Shown: in pieces, positions 1,833 to 25,143 of the stretch
Numbering within the stretch: position 1 is the stretch's first letter
How the letters are laid out: each line of letters begins with the position of its first letter
Origin: Nodosilinea sp. FACHB-131
Lineage (GTDB): Bacteria; Cyanobacteriota; Cyanobacteriia; Phormidesmidales; Phormidesmidaceae
Assembly: GCF_014695395.1 (NCBI RefSeq)
Contig: NZ_JACJOF010000011.1
Coordinates: forward strand, 62,001-126,000
Direction of reading: 5' to 3'
DNA length: 64,000 nucleotides
Notes under the pieces: generated by a model
Databases searched by the model: none
Seen by the model: only the letters and a program-made list of their open reading frames with translations
Told to the model about the DNA's origin: nothing
Program-made: the position numbers and the translations under genes

Positions 1833-1939
1833 CTCAAAGCGCTTGCTCTACCCTGTAAATAGGTGGCTGCTGGTAGCTAGCCTCTGCTGAAAGCTCAACT
1901 ACCCCACTGACAACCTGTACCACTGCGGAGATTTTCCCC

Positions 1940-2563
1940 ATGCTGGGTTTTCTTAAACAAGTCGGCGATTATGCCAAAGAGAGCTTACAGGCGGCCAAAT
2001 ATATTGGCCAGGGGCTTTCTGTAACCTTTGACCATATGAGTCGCCGGCCGGTGACGGTGCAGTACCCCTATGAGAAACTGATCCCCTCAGAGCGGTTTCG
2101 GGGACGCATTCACTTTGAGTTTGACAAGTGCATTGCCTGTGAGGTGTGTGTGCGGGTGTGCCCCATCAACTTGCCTGTAGTTGATTGGGAGTTTGATAAG
2201 GCGACTAAGAAAAAAGACCTGAAGCACTACAGCATTGACTTTGGGGTTTGCATTTTCTGCGGCAACTGCGTGGAGTATTGCCCCACCAACTGTCTGTCGA
2301 TGACTGAAGAGTATGAGCTGGCTGTCTATGAGCGCCACGAGCTGAACTATGACAACGTAGCCCTAGGTCGTTTGCCCTACAAGGTCACCCAAGACCCGAT
2401 GGTCACTCCCCTGCGGGAACTGGCCTACCTGCCTAAAGGCGTCATGGGTCCTCATGATCTGCCGGTCAACGCTCGGCGGGCGGGCCAGATGCCCCAAGAA
2501 ATTTTGGAGGCGGCCCAAAAAGAGGCTAAAGCGGCTGAAGGCGAAGCCAAGCCTAAGGAGTAA
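1940..2563 (+). CDS. ndhI: NAD(P)H-quinone oxidoreductase subunit I, 2x[4Fe-4S] ferredoxin type
   Basis: The protein has 207 residues. Two CxxCxxCxxxCP clusters ([12 protein letters not shown] near residue 65 and [12 protein letters not shown] near 104) bind the two [4Fe-4S] centres that carry electrons from ferredoxin-reduced NDH-1 toward plastoquinone. The amphipathic N-terminus (residues 1-50) matches the NuoI/NdhI membrane-docking helix. The C-terminal ~30 residues are Ala/Glu/Lys rich and variable in the family. It lies 107 bases after ndhA, with GGAG upstream of the ATG. Interior of the ndhA-I-G-E operon. Confidence 0.97.
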
Positions 2564-2645
2564 TGCACGCGTCAGGGTTCCGTGGTACATTCGCCTAAGC
2601 TAAGACCACGGCTGCGATCGCTCAATTTTTACAGGAGTCAAGACT

Positions 2646-3257
2646 GTGACGCTAGCGGAAGGGGTACAACTCGTTGCCTTTGGCATACTGGTTGCAATGA
2701 CGCTGGGGGGTGCCCTGGGGGTCGTGCTATTAGATAACATTGTCTACTCGGCGTTTTTGCTGGGAGGCGTGTTCACCAGCATGGCAGGCCTTTACATCTT
2801 GCTCAATGCGGGGTTTGTAGCTGCTGCTCAGGTGCTGGTGTATGTGGGTGCAGTCAGCGTGCTGATTCTGTTTGGGATCATGCTGGTGAATAAGGAACAG
2901 GAGTTCACCCCCATGAAGCAGGCCTGGGTGGGCAAGATCGCTACTGGCGGAGTTTGCGTTGGTCTGTTTGCGCTGCTGACAACCTCAACTCTAAATACGC
3001 CGTGGGCTATTTCTACCGAGGTGCCCCAGGGTGAGCTAGCCACTGTCGCCATTGGTATTCACTTTTTTACCGATTATCTGCTCCCCTTTGAGCTGGCTTC
3101 GGTGCTGCTGCTGATCGCGCTGATTGGGGCGATCGTGCTGGCTCGCCGCGAATTGATTCCTGACGTAGCTCCTGGGGAGACTGCCTCTGAAGCATTGCAG
3201 CTGCCAGAGCGGCCGCGCGAACTGGTGTCGTCGGTGGCAAGCCCAGAGTCTGATTAG
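2646..3257 (+). CDS. ndhG: NAD(P)H-quinone oxidoreductase subunit 6 (NdhG)
   Basis: A 203-residue membrane protein homologous to NuoJ/ND6 of the NDH-1 proton-pumping membrane arm. About five transmembrane helices are visible. The conserved segment A-A-Q-V-L-V-Y-V-G-A-V-S-V-L-I-L-F near residue 60 is the ND6 signature around the pi-bulge helix. The C-terminal ~35 residues are hydrophilic and Pro/Glu rich. GTG is the likely start because AGGAG sits nine bases upstream. Third gene of the ndh operon. Confidence 0.95.
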   Translation: MTLAEGVQLVAFGILVAMTLGGALGVVLLDNIVYSAFLLGGVFTSMAGLYILLNAGFVAAAQVLVYVGAVSVLILFGIMLVNKEQEFTPMKQAWVGKIATGGVCVGLFALLTTSTLNTPWAISTEVPQGELATVAIGIHFFTDYLLPFELASVLLLIALIGAIVLARRELIPDVAPGETASEALQLPERPRELVSSVASPESD

Positions 3258-3346
3258 ACCTCTGTTTGTCAGCCTTGTCAGGCTGAGGAACTGCTGCTTG
3301 AGGCTCAAAACTGTTGTTAGGTACTGGAACGAATTCTTCTTTAGCC

Positions 3347-3652
3347 ATGCAACTTGAGTATTTTCTGCTTACTGCCGCTGCCCTGTTCTGTATTGGCATC
3401 TATGGCCTGGTTAACAGCCGCAACGTCATTCGCGTGCTGATGTCCATTGAGCTGATGCTGAATGCCGTCAACCTGAACCTGCTGGCGTTTTCGAACTACC
3501 TCGACCCGGTGGGCATTAACGGTCAGGTGTTTGCGGTGTTTGTGATTAGCATTGCGGCGGCAGAGGCGGCAGTGGGGTTGGCTATCGTGCTGTCGATCTA
3601 CCGCAACCGCGACACAGTAGATATGGAGCAGTTCAATTTGCTCAAGTGGTAG
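3347..3652 (+). CDS. ndhE: NAD(P)H-quinone oxidoreductase subunit 4L (NdhE)
   Basis: A 101-residue NuoK/ND4L homologue with three transmembrane helices. [12 protein letters not shown] in the second helix carries the conserved membrane Glu that takes part in proton transfer. I chose the ATG at 3347 (M-Q-L-E-Y-F) over an upstream TTG at 3314 because it gives the standard family length and N-terminus. The last gene of the ndh operon, followed within 30 bases by a strong terminator. Confidence 0.96.
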
Positions 3653-6541: not shown

Positions 6542-7684
6542 ATGAAGCGTCGGCAGTTGGTTAAAACGACAACCTGGGGCGTGGCGGCGGCTACGACCGC
6601 AAGCCTGGGGGCCTGTGCTGGGGCCTCTTCCTCTGGGGTCGAGGGCGCCGCTGAGGATCTGCCTCGGATCGATTGGCAAATGGCCACCAGCTGGCCTGCC
6701 GCCCTCGACACAATTTTGGGCGGGGCTCAGACCTTTGCTGATCGCGTCAGCGCTATGAGCGGCGGCCGGTTTACCATTTCACCCCGCTCCGCTGGCGAAA
6801 TTGCCCCACCGCTAGAAGTGCTCAATGTGGTTTCCCAGGGGGCGGTGCCCTGTGGCCACACGGCCTCGTACTACTACGTGGGTCGCAGCCCGGTAATGGG
6901 CTTCGGGGCCAGCCTGCCCTTTGGCCTGACCCCTCAGCAGCAAAACGCCTGGCTCTACGAGGGGGGCGGGCTGGAAAAGCTTCAGGAGTTTTACGCCCGT
7001 CAGTTCAACGTGATTCAGTTCCCCGCTGGCAATACCGGGGCGCAGATGGGGGGGTGGTTTCGCCGCGAGATCGCCAGCGTCAGCGATCTGGCCGGGCTCA
7101 AGATGCGCATCCCCGGGCTGGGGGGCCAGGTGATGAGCAAACTGGGGGTAACGGTGCAGACACTGCCGGGGGGCGAGATTTTTCAGGCCCTGCAAACCGG
7201 GGCGATCGACGCTGCCGAGTGGGTCGGCCCCTACGACGACGAAAAGCTGGGACTGAATAAGGTGGCTCAGTACTACTACTACCCCGGCTGGTGGGAGCCG
7301 GGCAGCACCCTGGAGGTGCAGATCAACCTCGACCAGTGGAACCAACTGCCCGAGGTCTATCAGCAGATCGTGCGTACGGCGGCCTTTGAGGCTAATACGG
7401 AAATGCTGTCGCGCTACGAAACCCGCAACAACGAAGCCCTTCAGCGCTTGGTTGACGGCGGCGTGCAGCTGCGCGAATACAGCGCCGAGATTATGACCGC
7501 CGCTCAGGAGGCCACCTTTGACCTCTACGACGAGTTTGCCGCCGGCGATGCCGACTTTAAGGCCATCTATGACGACTGGCGCGGGTTTCGCGATCGCATC
7601 TATGCCTGGAGCCAGCTCAACCAGGGGGCCTTTGAACGCTTTGTCTACAGCAATCTGAAGGCTGGGGGCGAGGCACCCGCCTAG
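6542..7684 (+). CDS. TRAP transporter periplasmic substrate-binding protein (DctP/TakP type)
   Basis: A 380-residue secreted binding protein of a Na+-driven TRAP transporter. The leader M-K-R-R-Q-L-V-K ends in an L-G-A-C lipobox-like site at residue ~25, so it may be membrane-anchored. W-x-M-A-T-S-W near residue 45 opens the mature fold. [10 protein letters not shown]-x-V holds the Arg that clamps the substrate carboxylate, and E-W-V-G-P-Y-D-D and W-E-P-G-S-T resemble 2-oxoacid-binding TakP proteins. The nearest characterised cyanobacterial system I know is the glutamate transporter GtrABC of Synechocystis. The substrate here is uncertain (2-oxoacid or glutamate). It converges, 22 bases apart, with the permease genes on the other strand. 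Confidence 0.9.
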
Positions 7685-18288: not shown

Positions 18289-18957
18289 TTAACGAGGAGC
18301 AGCGCCGTAGGTGCGGGGGTTACGAGCACCTGTAGCAGCACCAGCAAGGGAAGCCACTAGGCCCAGCAGAGACCCTAGAGCAAATGACCAACCAACCTTG
18401 GCAGCATTGCCAGCAATGTTTTGGGCTTGCTCTTGACTCACGTTGGGGTCAGCAGCATTGGGCAGAGCATCGGTGGGCACCTGATTAACGACGGCGTCGG
18501 CTCCCTGGGCTACTAGACCAAAAGCACCAGCTACGCCACTCGAAAGCAGCCAGGCGCTAACGGCCAGGGTGGTTGCCCACAAAATAGCGCCGTTGAGCAA
18601 AGCGGTTTTGCGGTTCATGGGGCCGCAGGCGCGAGAGGTAACGTAGCCGCCTAAGAACAAGGCAATCAGCAAGCTGATAATTGACCAGATGCCTACGGCA
18701 GTACCAACGTCGCCGGCGTTACTTTGGGCAGCATCTGAGCCAGCTATATTGGTGAGGCCCACGGCCGCACCTAAGGCAGTGAGCACAAGCTGAGTGGCGA
18801 TCGCCACAACTAGACCGGCAATAATTGGACCCCAGCGTACCAGGTCATGGTAGCCGGTAACGGCAACGGGCGCTGCGTCTGCTATGCGCTGGCCCGGGGC
18901 GGTGCCGTAAGCAACAGGCTCTTCTCTATAAGCGCCGGGTTCATTGGTGTAGGACAT
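18289..18957 (-). CDS. Four-helix membrane protein of unknown function
   Basis: A 222-residue protein with an N-terminal hydrophilic arm (1-38), then about four transmembrane helices (roughly 42-68, 87-108, 118-140 and 190-208). A polar Asn/Gln/Ala-rich loop lies between the last two. The block V-R-W-G-P-I-I-A-G-L-V-V-A-I-A and the block V-G-I-W-S-I-I-S-L-L-I-A-L-F-L-G-G-Y-V-T can be aligned by eye with the N-terminus of the 1023-residue protein at 21243-24314. There the second block reads V-G-I-W-T-V-I-T. I therefore take the two as sharing one membrane domain. GAGAGG precedes the ATG. Function is unknown; neighbours hint at stress or envelope roles. Confidence 0.8.
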   Translation of the reverse strand: MSYTNEPGAYREEPVAYGTAPGQRIADAAPVAVTGYHDLVRWGPIIAGLVVAIATQLVLTALGAAVGLTNIAGSDAAQSNAGDVGTAVGIWSIISLLIALFLGGYVTSRACGPMNRKTALLNGAILWATTLAVSAWLLSSGVAGAFGLVAQGADAVVNQVPTDALPNAADPNVSQEQAQNIAGNAAKVGWSFALGSLLGLVASLAGAATGARNPRTYGAAPR

Positions 18958-21242: not shown

Positions 21243-24200
21243 CTAGCTCACGACTGCCAGACCACCAGCGGCGGCAGCACAGATGGCTGAGATCGTAGCG
21301 GTAGCAAAGATCCACCAGGAGGCAGCAGCGGCGGTTTTGCGGGTGTCTTCCACCTGCTGGTAGGCCTGGTGCTTGATCTCGCTCAAGCGGTTCTCGACTG
21401 CGTGTTCGAGCTGTTCGGCTTTGCTGAGAGCGCTGCTGCGAACATCTTCGATCTGGTCAATGATGCGGTTAGCATCGCTTTCTGAAATCGCATCGTGGGA
21501 ACTCATAAGCGCCACTAGCGTACCGCGATCGACCTGGCCGAGGCGCACTTTGAGAGACTCAAAGCCTGCCTGGGGGTCATCCATGAGCTGCTGCAAGTCG
21601 CGGCGAATGCCGTAGTAGTCAAGCTCGGGGCGACCCAGCGAGTCGAGGTAGGTGCGAATCCGCGACAGAATGCCGTTTACCAACGACGAAATGCGAGACT
21701 GCACATTGCGAATCTGGGCCACGAACTGGCTCCGCACCGATAGCACCTGATCGACTGCCGCTTCGGCTTCGGCCTGGGTCATGTCGGGACGTTGGGCCAG
21801 CAGAGCCACAACGGTGTCACGATCGATTCTTGACAGGCGAGCTTGCAGACGCTCGGCCCCCAGGCGAGGATCATTGAGCAGCAGCTTGAGATCGCGCTTG
21901 ATGTCGTCGGGGTTGAGCGCTGCTTTGTTGGTGTTGCGCAGATAGTCTTCCAGGGCGGTTTCAAAGGAGACAACCTGGGTCTGGGCCCGACGAGCCAGCC
22001 GCTGAGGCATGTGCAGAATACCGCGAATGGTACCTAGCACATCGTCAATGATGCGATTGGCTTCTGCTTCGCTGAGGTCCTCGCGCTGGCTGAGTAGCTG
22101 CACTAGGGTGTCGCGATCCATGGCCGATAGGCGATCGCGCATAGCCCCCATCCCCGCCTGAGGGTTGTTCACCAACAGCTCCAGGTCGCGCTTAATGCCC
22201 TCGGGGTTGAGTTCGGGCTTGCCGGTTTCGAGCAGATAGCGCTCGATCGCACTGGTGGCTTCATCGTACTTGGCCTTGGCCTGGGCCGTCAGCGCGCCGG
22301 GTGCGTTAATCGTCTTGTACCAGGTCGACTCAACCTGATCGAGAGTGCGGTTGATCTCAGCTTCGGAGAGATCTTGACGCTGGTTGAGCAATTGCACCAG
22401 GGTGTCGCGATCGAACTGGGCCATGCGCTGGCGCAGGCGGTGCACACCAGCATCGGGCTCGTGGAGCAGCGTAGCAAGGTCGGCCTTGATGCCCTCAGGG
22501 TTAAGCTCAGCTTTATTGGTGTTTTGCAGATAGTGCTGTAACCCCATCCACTGGTTCTCAACCCGAGCTTTGGCCGAGGATTGCAGCCCGGCGGCATCGG
22601 ACCGCACGTTGTTCATCACCCCTTCTAAACGGCTGGCAACAGCCTGTATTTCTGCCTCGCTCAGATCGCCACGGGTGCTTAGGGTCTGGGTAAGAGCTTC
22701 ATAGGTGAAGGGGGCAAACCGCTCTTGCAGGTCGTCAGCATCGGCGTAGGGATCGTCTAGCAGGCTGCTGAAGGCGCTGCTACCCGTTTCAGACAGCAGC
22801 TCTTCGCGCGGGGTTTGACGCAGAAAAGTATAAACCTTAGTCTGTGCATCCTTGGCCGCTTCGATCCGGTAGCGCTCAGAAACTTCGCCTAGGGCTTGAA
22901 GCCGCACAGCTTCGAGCTGGCGCGAAACATCGGCAATTTCGCTCTTAGTTAGCAGCCCTCGCGAGGCCAAAAGCTCGGCGAAGAATGACTGATCTAGGTT
23001 CATCAGCTCTTGGCGCATCAGACCCGCGTCAGCAAAGGGATCGTAGATGACATCCCAAAACTCTTTCTGCATGCGCTGGGTGTTGAGCTGCCACGGGTAG
23101 GCGTTGAGCAGGTAGGTTTCGACGTCAGCTCTGACCACGCTGTAGCGATCGCTGCCGCTTACCTGGCTAGTGAGCGTGTCAGCTTGGCTGGTGACATCGT
23201 TCTTGAGCTGCTTAAAGCGCTCGGTGATCTTCTCCACGTCCAGGTCAGAGAGGTCGGCTCGACCCATCACCACACCCATCAGGGTGCTCAACCCCTGGTT
23301 GAGCGGGTTGGTTTTGGCCTCTTTGCCCTTGCGCTGCTGGCGCAGTTCGCCCAGAAACTCGTCTAGGCGGCTGCCCAGCGAGTCGGCCAACAGTTCCTCT
23401 GGGCGGGCTGACTTGAGGTAGTTGACCAGTTCACCAAGGCTGTCGTTGCCAGAGGCCTTGCCCAGCGCTTTGTTCCAGGTGCTGTAGAGGCGATCGGCGA
23501 TGCGGCTAGCTTCTTTGCGCGACAGATCGGTACGGCTGCTGACCAGCTTCTCAAAGCTGTCGCGGTTGAGCTGGGATAGAGTATCGCGATCGGCCAACGA
23601 TGTTAGGTCAGACTCGTGAATCAGGCGCTCAAACTCAGCCTCTAACCCTGCGATATCCAATGCTGGGGATGTGAGGGAGCTAACGTAATCGCGCAGGGTG
23701 TCCTTGATATCGCTGCCGCTCCAGCCGGCGGTGAGTTCGCGGCGCACAGCGGCGGCGGTGGCTTCGGCGGTCTCAATCACCTGGTTGCTGGCCATCTTGG
23801 CCCCCACAGCCCCGGTGGCTGCCCCTAAGAGGGATTGAAAACTAGAGGTTGCGGTTTTGACCACTGATCCAATCAGCGACCCAACGGTAGTTGAGCTAAA
23901 CCAAAACAGCAGGCAAAAGTAGGTGCCCCACACCACCAAACCGGTAATAGCCCCTAGCAACGCACTGCTGTAAAGGCTGAGCTTAACGGCCAAAAAGCAG
24001 GCACAAAAAAGGGCCAAACTAACCGTGATCACGGTCCAAATACCAACTTTGGTGGCAATTTTTTTGTCACCGCTACCAGAGCTGCTGCTGCTACTACTCG
24101 ATGAAGACTGGCCGATGTAGGTGAGGCCAGCGGCGACCGACAGGTTGGTTAGCAGAAGATGAAAGCCGAAGGCCAAAATTACGCCCGAAAGCAGGGCAAT

Positions 24201-24314
24201 GAAAAACTGAGGCCCCGAAAAAATAAGGGCAGCATCTTCAGGGGTGGTGACTCCTGGAGATACTACCTGTGCCAGAGGGCCGCTTAGTATGTTTAGTCCA
24301 ATGTGCTCAATCAC
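21243..24314 (-). CDS. Large membrane protein with eight degenerate ~90-residue helical repeats
   Basis: A 1023-residue protein. Residues 1-175 hold about four transmembrane helices with a poly-Ser stretch near residue 70. The middle consists of about eight related units of 80-95 residues. The best four (roughly residues 570-960) follow Y-L-x(4)-K-x-E-L-N-P-x-x-I-K-x-D-L-x-x-L-L, then D-P-x-A-G, R-L-x-x-x-D-R-x-T-L-V-x-L-L, R-x-D-L-S-E-A-E and an Ile/Glu helix. The first four are more diverged. A last transmembrane helix (about 993-1018) closes the chain. No enzyme motif is seen. The design suggests an anchored helical solenoid or coiled rod. The N-terminal membrane part resembles the 222-residue protein at 18289. 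It is transcribed divergently from csbD. Confidence 0.85.
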   Translation of the reverse strand: MIEHIGLNILSGPLAQVVSPGVTTPEDAALIFSGPQFFIALLSGVILAFGFHLLLTNLSVAAGLTYIGQSSSSSSSSSSGSGDKKIATKVGIWTVITVSLALFCACFLAVKLSLYSSALLGAITGLVVWGTYFCLLFWFSSTTVGSLIGSVVKTATSSFQSLLGAATGAVGAKMASNQVIETAEATAAAVRRELTAGWSGSDIKDTLRDYVSSLTSPALDIAGLEAEFERLIHESDLTSLADRDTLSQLNRDSFEKLVSSRTDLSRKEASRIADRLYSTWNKALGKASGNDSLGELVNYLKSARPEELLADSLGSRLDEFLGELRQQRKGKEAKTNPLNQGLSTLMGVVMGRADLSDLDVEKITERFKQLKNDVTSQADTLTSQVSGSDRYSVVRADVETYLLNAYPWQLNTQRMQKEFWDVIYDPFADAGLMRQELMNLDQSFFAELLASRGLLTKSEIADVSRQLEAVRLQALGEVSERYRIEAAKDAQTKVYTFLRQTPREELLSETGSSAFSSLLDDPYADADDLQERFAPFTYEALTQTLSTRGDLSEAEIQAVASRLEGVMNNVRSDAAGLQSSAKARVENQWMGLQHYLQNTNKAELNPEGIKADLATLLHEPDAGVHRLRQRMAQFDRDTLVQLLNQRQDLSEAEINRTLDQVESTWYKTINAPGALTAQAKAKYDEATSAIERYLLETGKPELNPEGIKRDLELLVNNPQAGMGAMRDRLSAMDRDTLVQLLSQREDLSEAEANRIIDDVLGTIRGILHMPQRLARRAQTQVVSFETALEDYLRNTNKAALNPDDIKRDLKLLLNDPRLGAERLQARLSRIDRDTVVALLAQRPDMTQAEAEAAVDQVLSVRSQFVAQIRNVQSRISSLVNGILSRIRTYLDSLGRPELDYYGIRRDLQQLMDDPQAGFESLKVRLGQVDRGTLVALMSSHDAISESDANRIIDQIEDVRSSALSKAEQLEHAVENRLSEIKHQAYQQVEDTRKTAAAASWWIFATATISAICAAAAGGLAVVS

Positions 24315-24960
24315 GGTACTGTTCCTTTGAAAATTGCAACTGTCTCGATGCCGCTTGGTCTACCCGTTTCTAGTAACTGTTAGTGGAGATACTGAGAATG
24401 CAGTTTGGTCTGCCAAAGACTAGAAGGCTATATGTGTGAGTCAGCTCGGGCGATCGCTCTTCGCTCTTCGGGACATAAAACCGATCGAGCGGGGCCAGAC
24501 TCAAACACACAAAAAATAGACTTAAAAAATGAAAGAATCTGAGTAGTCTGAGTCGCAACTCTAGATACCTCAGGACAACGAATACAGCCTCTAGGCTTAC
24601 ATCAAACTCTATTAGTCCTAATAAAGCATCTATCCCACTGCGTAATTCTTTGGGGGGATAATATGTGGGCGTAATCCTGTCTAGGTCTGAGGTATGGCTG
24701 ATGGTTGGTCAACCTTTGGAGGGAGCGATCGCCCCATAGCCCAGTCCGGCACTGCTAAAAAATAAAGTTCTTGCGACCCATGGGCAAAGGCTTTAGCCTC
24801 TGCTCAGTTGTCTAAATCTGTTTGACTAGATTGCAGCATCTCTTCAATAGCACCGTGATAGAGTGCCGCCGAAGTAAAGTGTTCCTCTTGACGGATGGTA
24901 CCTATAAACCGTGTTTTTAGACTGTACAAAGTGAAAATCAAAAAAGTAGAGGAATAACCA
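24315..24960. other. Divergent control region between repeat-protein gene and csbD
   Basis: 646 bases with no credible gene; a 62-codon frame at 24370-24558 minus is hydrophobic but isolated. The region must carry the promoters of both divergent genes. Patches such as CTAATAAAG and TATAAACC occur, but no -35/-10 pair with normal spacing could be settled. Confidence 0.5.
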
Positions 24961-25143
24961 ATGAGTATTCAAGATAGAGCCGAAGCTACCGGCAAGAACA
25001 TTCAAGGTAAAGCGCAGGAAGCGGCCGGCAAAGTAACCGGGAATACCTCCGACGAAGCGAAAGGTAAGTCCAAGCAGGGCGAATCCAGCGTTCAGCACGC
25101 CAAAGAAGATGTCAAAGATCAAGTCAAGAAAGTTATTGACTAA
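24961..25143 (+). CDS. CsbD-family stress protein
   Basis: A 60-residue, very hydrophilic Lys/Glu/Ala/Gln-rich protein. A-T-G-K-N-I-Q-G-K-A-Q-E-A-A-G-K-V-T-G-N is the CsbD signature (compare the E. coli YjbJ type). Members are abundant general-stress or osmotic-stress proteins of unknown mechanism, predicted to be largely disordered in water. AGAGGAA precedes the ATG and a strong terminator follows, so it is a compact single-gene unit. It is divergent from the repeat-membrane protein. Confidence 0.9.
   Translation: MSIQDRAEATGKNIQGKAQEAAGKVTGNTSDEAKGKSKQGESSVQHAKEDVKDQVKKVID

Follow-up and report, generated by a model that had tools for sequence, protein, structure and literature searches.

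The window, the whole stretch of 64,000 nucleotides that was analysed, comes from a genome of the Nodosilinea/Leptolyngbya group of cyanobacteria. On its minus strand, positions 21243-24314 form an open reading frame that starts with GTG and whose translation of 1023 amino acids consists of three N-terminal membrane helices, eight repeat units (residues 199-973) and one C-terminal membrane helix. The features of the gene, and of the stress gene that diverges from it, are as follows, with the evidence for each in brackets.

21243..24314, minus strand: whole gene of a helical repeat protein of 1023 aa anchored at both ends, paralog clade A (sequence, repeat HMM, tree)
24322..24327, minus strand: probable ribosome-binding site AAGGAA, with its AGGA core 8 bases 5' of the GTG start (read from sequence)
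24123..24212, minus strand: membrane helix 1, residues ~35-64 (hydropathy; AF2 helix 35-69)
24078..24107, minus strand: poly-Ser run at residues 70-79, within the loop that joins membrane helices 1 and 2 (sequence)
23976..24050, minus strand: membrane helix 2, residues ~89-113 (hydropathy; AF2)
23892..23963, minus strand: membrane helix 3, residues ~118-141 (hydropathy; AF2)
23457..23711, minus strand: repeat unit 1, residues 202-286, 48 bits (repeat HMM)
23163..23438, minus strand: repeat unit 2, residues 293-384, 15 bits, the most diverged (repeat HMM)
22884..23147, minus strand: repeat unit 3, residues 390-477, 26 bits (repeat HMM)
22578..22856, minus strand: repeat unit 4, residues 487-579, 48 bits (repeat HMM)
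22281..22571, minus strand: repeat unit 5, residues 582-678, 127 bits (repeat HMM)
21984..22277, minus strand: repeat unit 6, residues 680-777, 130 bits (repeat HMM)
21690..21983, minus strand: repeat unit 7, residues 778-875, 117 bits (repeat HMM)
21399..21680, minus strand: repeat unit 8, residues 879-972, 113 bits, whose long helix (945-1022) enters the C-terminal membrane helix (repeat HMM; AF2)
21255..21323, minus strand: C-terminal membrane helix, residues ~998-1020, with a basic stretch ahead of it (hydropathy; AF2)
24961..25143, plus strand: csbD-like stress gene (60 aa), divergent from the repeat gene, whose start lies 646 bp away (Pfam PF05532, E=7e-14)

A sequence-only reading of this DNA had divided the protein into about eight units of ~90 residues, the last four much alike and the first four strongly diverged. 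Self-comparison of residues 176-990 confirmed the periodicity, with diagonals at offsets of 98, 196, 294, 385 and 483, that is, at multiples of 98, scoring 77-119, well above the maximum of 44 reached in 30 shuffles. A repeat HMM, built from units 5-8 across family relatives, found exactly eight units with a period of 98 in the window protein and bore out the proposed asymmetry, with units 5-8 strong (113-130 bits) versus the diverged units 1-4 (15-48 bits). The units are indeed periodic and of similar length, but that length is 98 and not ~90 residues, and unit 2 is weak. The motifs DRDTLV and QRxDLS are conserved in several units. A further division of each unit into two half-repeats, with halves resembling YL..ELNPEGI and LV..DLSEAE, was considered and rejected, as profile-profile comparison gave it no support.

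Membrane helices occur at both ends of the protein, as that reading had proposed, at about residues 37-62, 90-113 and 118-141 on the N-terminal side and about 998-1020 on the C-terminal side; the poly-Ser run is also real, but it is sited between membrane helices 1 and 2, and the composition of this run of ten serines differs among relatives and is not conserved. The repeat domain is acidic, with a pI of about 4.9-5.0 (mean 5.0), and contains no Cys in the window protein; in 73 of 90 orthologs, the repeats include no hydrophobic 19-mer of membrane type. A topology with the repeats inside would agree with two weak signals, a basic stretch ahead of the C-terminal helix and an acidic N-terminus.

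No match covering the repeats was found in Pfam, NCBIfam, PHROGs, PDB sequences or PDB folds, and the protein can still be called undescribed across all five. Likewise, no enzyme family was matched in Pfam or NCBIfam, in agreement with the absence of enzyme motifs remarked upon earlier. The PDB sequence search retrieved no significant match for the repeat protein, and a profile of the single unit retrieved one weak match, to a protein named H12 (E=6e-4, 34 residues). Annexin-like repeats were also discarded as a candidate, because profile matches reached just E=0.1-0.57 and the type II calcium core GxG[TS] is missing from the window protein.

AlphaFold (AF2) modelling of the full protein with 60 sequences (pLDDT 60.6, pTM 0.35) predicted for each unit, with low confidence, one ~45-residue helix that runs unbroken into the following unit, together with three or four short helices; residues 390-580 were the best predicted part of the model (about 75-90 pLDDT). 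A two-unit construct with 68 sequences gave the same secondary structure at a pLDDT of 62, which did not raise the confidence, and the pTM of the models ranged from 0.34 to 0.35. Sequence and prediction together back a helical protein tethered to membrane at both ends. They do not back the solenoid that had been anticipated, in that the model, at its low confidence, shows long helices alternating with small helical knots. When these low-confidence models, full and two-unit, were compared with the PDB using Foldseek, nothing was retrieved at E<=0.001, and an alpha-actinin rod appeared at E=1.7 only. Because AF2 confidence is low, the models do not settle the tertiary arrangement of the units, and a rod, although knots linked by helices naturally suggest it, is not a demonstrated shape. 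Fully extended, eight helices of ~45 aa (~7 nm each) would span about 50-55 nm.

Identity is 85-95% for the close relatives in the family and 45-65% for a wider circle. At least 567 of 587 candidate stretches of the genome collection encode relatives, and the 80 that were kept are all cyanobacterial; we found no relatives among viral contigs or plasmids. The window protein has the hallmarks of the family: three membrane helices at the N-terminus, units of 98 aa and, at the C-terminus, a membrane helix starting with a WW[IL]F-type motif. In a class-wide sample of 291 genomes and 131 genera, the family was present in 129 genomes and 73 genera, and the smallest genome among the matches listed was of 3.1 Mb; the family is common in large-genome cyanobacteria. 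It is missing from more than half of the cyanobacteria sampled, which shows that it is not a core thylakoid part. The tree contains a well supported clade B, a remainder with its deep forks left open (clade A, to which the window gene belongs), and a very divergent pair. Clades A and B are two old paralog clades, and several genomes carry both.

Mean identity among orthologs is 68% in the N-terminal membrane part, 60-67% in units 6-8 and 62% in the C-terminal tail, and the units that drift most are 1, 2 and 4 (41-48%). Eight units are the rule among the repeat-bearing family ORFs of the first 115 loci (n=102), followed by seven (n=7) and by one or two (n=3). The divergent relatives have lengths of 371, 519, 693 and 881-977 aa, and most of them keep both ends. 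The shortest form, of ~371 aa, consists of the N-terminal part plus the C-terminal end; forms of 480-519 aa carry one or two significant units and the form of 977 aa carries seven. Unit number therefore varies from about one to eight between conserved ends, both membrane ends being retained in the complete versions examined. Partial pieces also exist, such as a 303-aa ORF of genome G165 that holds the C-terminal part only.

Genes of the family recurrently adjoin stress-protection genes, which is the new observation of this work. The position of the csbD-like gene is kept in six loci closely related to the window, whose wider synteny is conserved only within its closest relatives. In two further cyanobacterial families (G205 and G094), a csbD gene is likewise divergent from the repeat-family gene, at about 470 and 850 bp; there are only one to three CsbD genes per genome, yet they adjoin family genes in three cyanobacterial families. 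A YflT-type heat-stress gene lies divergently beside paralog B in three sampled Nostocaceae genomes (f31), and YflT genes also occur near family genes at loci L043, L045 and L138. At L043, a Dps-type ferritin gene (7131-7664, minus strand) diverges from the repeat gene and the YflT gene lies downstream of it, which places stress genes on both sides.

High-light-inducible-protein (HLIP) genes (PF00504) are found as one to four tandem, divergent copies within ~1.5 kb upstream of the family gene in 27 of the 80 kept loci, with HLIP matches elsewhere in the flanks of 2 of the 80. These HLIP-linked loci belong to Nostocales, Trichocoleus and Gloeocapsopsis. Six of 60 further upstream regions (five f31, one f26) contained HLIPs and 54 did not; beyond these three groups, most of the lineages sampled lack an adjacent HLIP gene. 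The outer neighbours vary between HLIP-linked loci while the HLIP pair stays, and are in some cases a Ras-like GTPase/OmpA/HATPase cluster and in others an NMT1-type ABC transporter with Usp and CitMHS. At L068 (2197-6716) and ten similar Nostocales loci, the former is an operon-like cluster that encodes a Ras-like small GTPase together with a HATPase and an OmpA-domain protein, and is located upstream of both the repeat gene and the HLIP array. Every HLIP-linked row of the tree belongs to one clade, which means that the HLIP link may have been a single event. A literature search with the Anabaena hlip locus tags asr3041-3043 found nothing.

The HLR1 element is the RpaB site of high-light genes (PMC6331805). 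We searched 1.25 Mb with a strict motif, [GT]TTACA[AT][AT]NN[GT]TTACA[AT][AT], whose form was compared with published examples (PMC6331805), and retrieved 14 sites, all of them between an HLIP array and a family gene (14 of 80 loci); none was found in the window's own intergenic region. The sites are in HLIP orientation, 286-376 bp from the family gene and, in the eight loci measured, 156-161 bp 5' of the first hlip ATG. Since their orientation and position suit the HLIP genes, they need not control the repeat gene. In the scp genes of Synechocystis, HLR1 lies 3-13 bp from the transcription start (PMC6331805), and the fixed spacing of 156-161 bp before the hlip start codon at L068, L080, L056 and other loci makes a long leader possible.

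HLIP/SCP, CsbD and YflT are small proteins unrelated to the repeat protein, partners by position and not homologues, and as recurrent gene neighbours they probably belong to the same stress response. We see roughly even chances that the family forms a cytoplasmic helical rod, membrane-anchored at both ends, that serves as a scaffold or spacer in the cyanobacterial high-light or general stress response. The repeat gene would be induced together with its stress neighbours; the three N-terminal helices and the C-terminal helix would hold the rod in the thylakoid membrane, or in the plasma membrane next to it, and the repeats, as the weak charge signals suggest, would lie in the cytosol. There, the rod would stabilise or space the stressed membrane, with each helical knot acting as a contact or docking point. 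A stress-induced scaffold had already been suggested; the conserved stress-gene neighbourhoods now give its presumed induction real support. A more specific proposal, which we regard as speculative, is that of an undescribed, length-variable spacer of the high-light regulon, made with HLIPs (or with CsbD/YflT), that would set the distance between thylakoid sheets or support photosystem repair zones in stress. Thylakoid spacing, attachment and integrity under stress are poorly understood and few proteins are known to take part, and the family is a concrete and easily tested candidate, Nostoc strains being genetically tractable, with two-end anchors, an HLIP/HLR1-linked gene, a repeat type that matches nothing solved and a presence in nearly half of the sampled cyanobacteria.

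How such a scaffold would be arranged can be viewed in two ways, to which the data are equally compatible; both are sub-cases of the stress scaffold, and our confidence in them overlaps with that in the general case. One is a tether inserted in one membrane by its N-terminal helices and in a second by its C-terminal helix, joining either two thylakoids or a thylakoid and the plasma membrane, the number of units setting the gap. The proposal that the protein spaces or links membranes came with the sequence-only reading, and the variable unit number between conserved ends helps it, as do the membrane helices at both ends and the extended length of the eight-unit rod, which, as estimated from the length of the helices, would be similar in magnitude to the spacing between thylakoids. 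Yet both ends in the same membrane would fit equally well, and most family members keep eight units, the shorter forms being diverged paralogs; we therefore entertain the tether only tentatively. The other arrangement, for which our support is just as guarded, is a platform that loops over one membrane and whose repeated knots would serve as docking sites for photosystem, HLIP, phycobilisome or protease complexes in the course of repair under stress. The linkage to HLIP arrays and the motifs shared by several units agree with a platform, but no partner is known and the divergence of units 1-4 makes identical docking at all units unlikely.

An alternative is chance linkage, in which a slowly evolving gene happens to adjoin stress genes. 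In its favour, the HLIP link may trace to one ancestor, and the loci are related, such that their counts are not independent. However, CsbD (three families, with so few copies per genome), YflT with paralog B, and Dps are linked on separate branches, and these different partners on different branches make chance linkage an unlikely explanation.

The closest functional parallel in the literature is AncM, which in Synechocystis anchors the thylakoid to the plasma membrane and increases in cold stress (PMC13353191, PMC10708155); a homologue, Q31MA1, is reported from Synechococcus elongatus 7942 (PMC10708155). Both are cyanobacterial membrane proteins thought to act in membrane architecture, and the general description is similar enough to ask whether the family is a cyanobacterial form or homologue of AncM. 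The genome of S. elongatus 7942 is small, ~2.7 Mb, and the repeat family, among the matches listed for the 291 genomes sampled, occurs in none below 3.1 Mb; this apparent difference in phyletic distribution argues against identity, which, judged by distribution, we hold to be very improbable. EzrA and spectrin-type proteins are membrane-attached helical repeat rods that act as spacers or scaffolds, which is how the repeat protein would also work. The spectrin-type unit consists of three long helices in about 106 aa, whereas the low-confidence models show here one long and three or four short helices per 98 aa, with membrane helices at both ends and no PDB fold match. The membrane-shaping proteins of cyanobacteria, CurT, IM30/Vipp1 and bacterial dynamins (PMC9950537), possibly share with the family the field of thylakoid shape and stress maintenance, but none of them is among the Pfam matches of the repeat protein.

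The sole Pfam match above the cut-off was HU (PF00216), with E=1e-9 over the whole protein; 11 of 14 relatives matched it too. The match, summed over the repeats, spans positions 1-36 of 90, which is the helical hairpin only of a fold that includes a beta-saddle and a DNA-binding arm, and reflects the resemblance of the DRxTLVxLLxQRxDLSExEA stretch to the N-terminal hairpin of HU/IHF. Individually, one of 26 units matched PF00216 (best E=0.0011), hhalign against cyanobacterial HU gave probabilities of 6% and 2%, and the motif of the DNA-binding arm (GRNPxTG), present in cyanobacterial HU sequences, is absent from the window protein. Membership of the HU type was rejected on these grounds and on the acidity of the repeats in what is a membrane protein. 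That the family anchors the nucleoid to the membrane through HU-like DNA-binding units is scarcely credible despite the whole-protein match, because an acidic repeat domain (pI 4.9) and so weak a resemblance to HU make DNA binding unlikely.

Other sequences related, or weakly similar, to the family were observed in the window, elsewhere in the source genome and in a further genome. A 222-aa membrane protein encoded 2.3 kb downstream of the repeat gene (18289-18957, minus strand) is weakly similar (about 27%) to the membrane part at the N-terminus of the repeat protein, and relatives of ~220-245 aa are found in many related genomes. The source genome also contains a short paralog of 502 aa (L021, G000:C41:26000-31000, ORF 1881-3386), with the same N- and C-terminal membrane parts and one clear unit, and a lone C-terminal piece (L022, G000:C9:113000-117000, positions 2046-2321) with 67 of 78 residues identical to the clade B protein of a close relative, probably the remnant of a clade B copy that this genome has lost. 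Finally, at L136/L145 (G186:C1:3716395-3721072) the family gene appears as two ORFs about 1.5 kb apart, possibly separated by an insertion.
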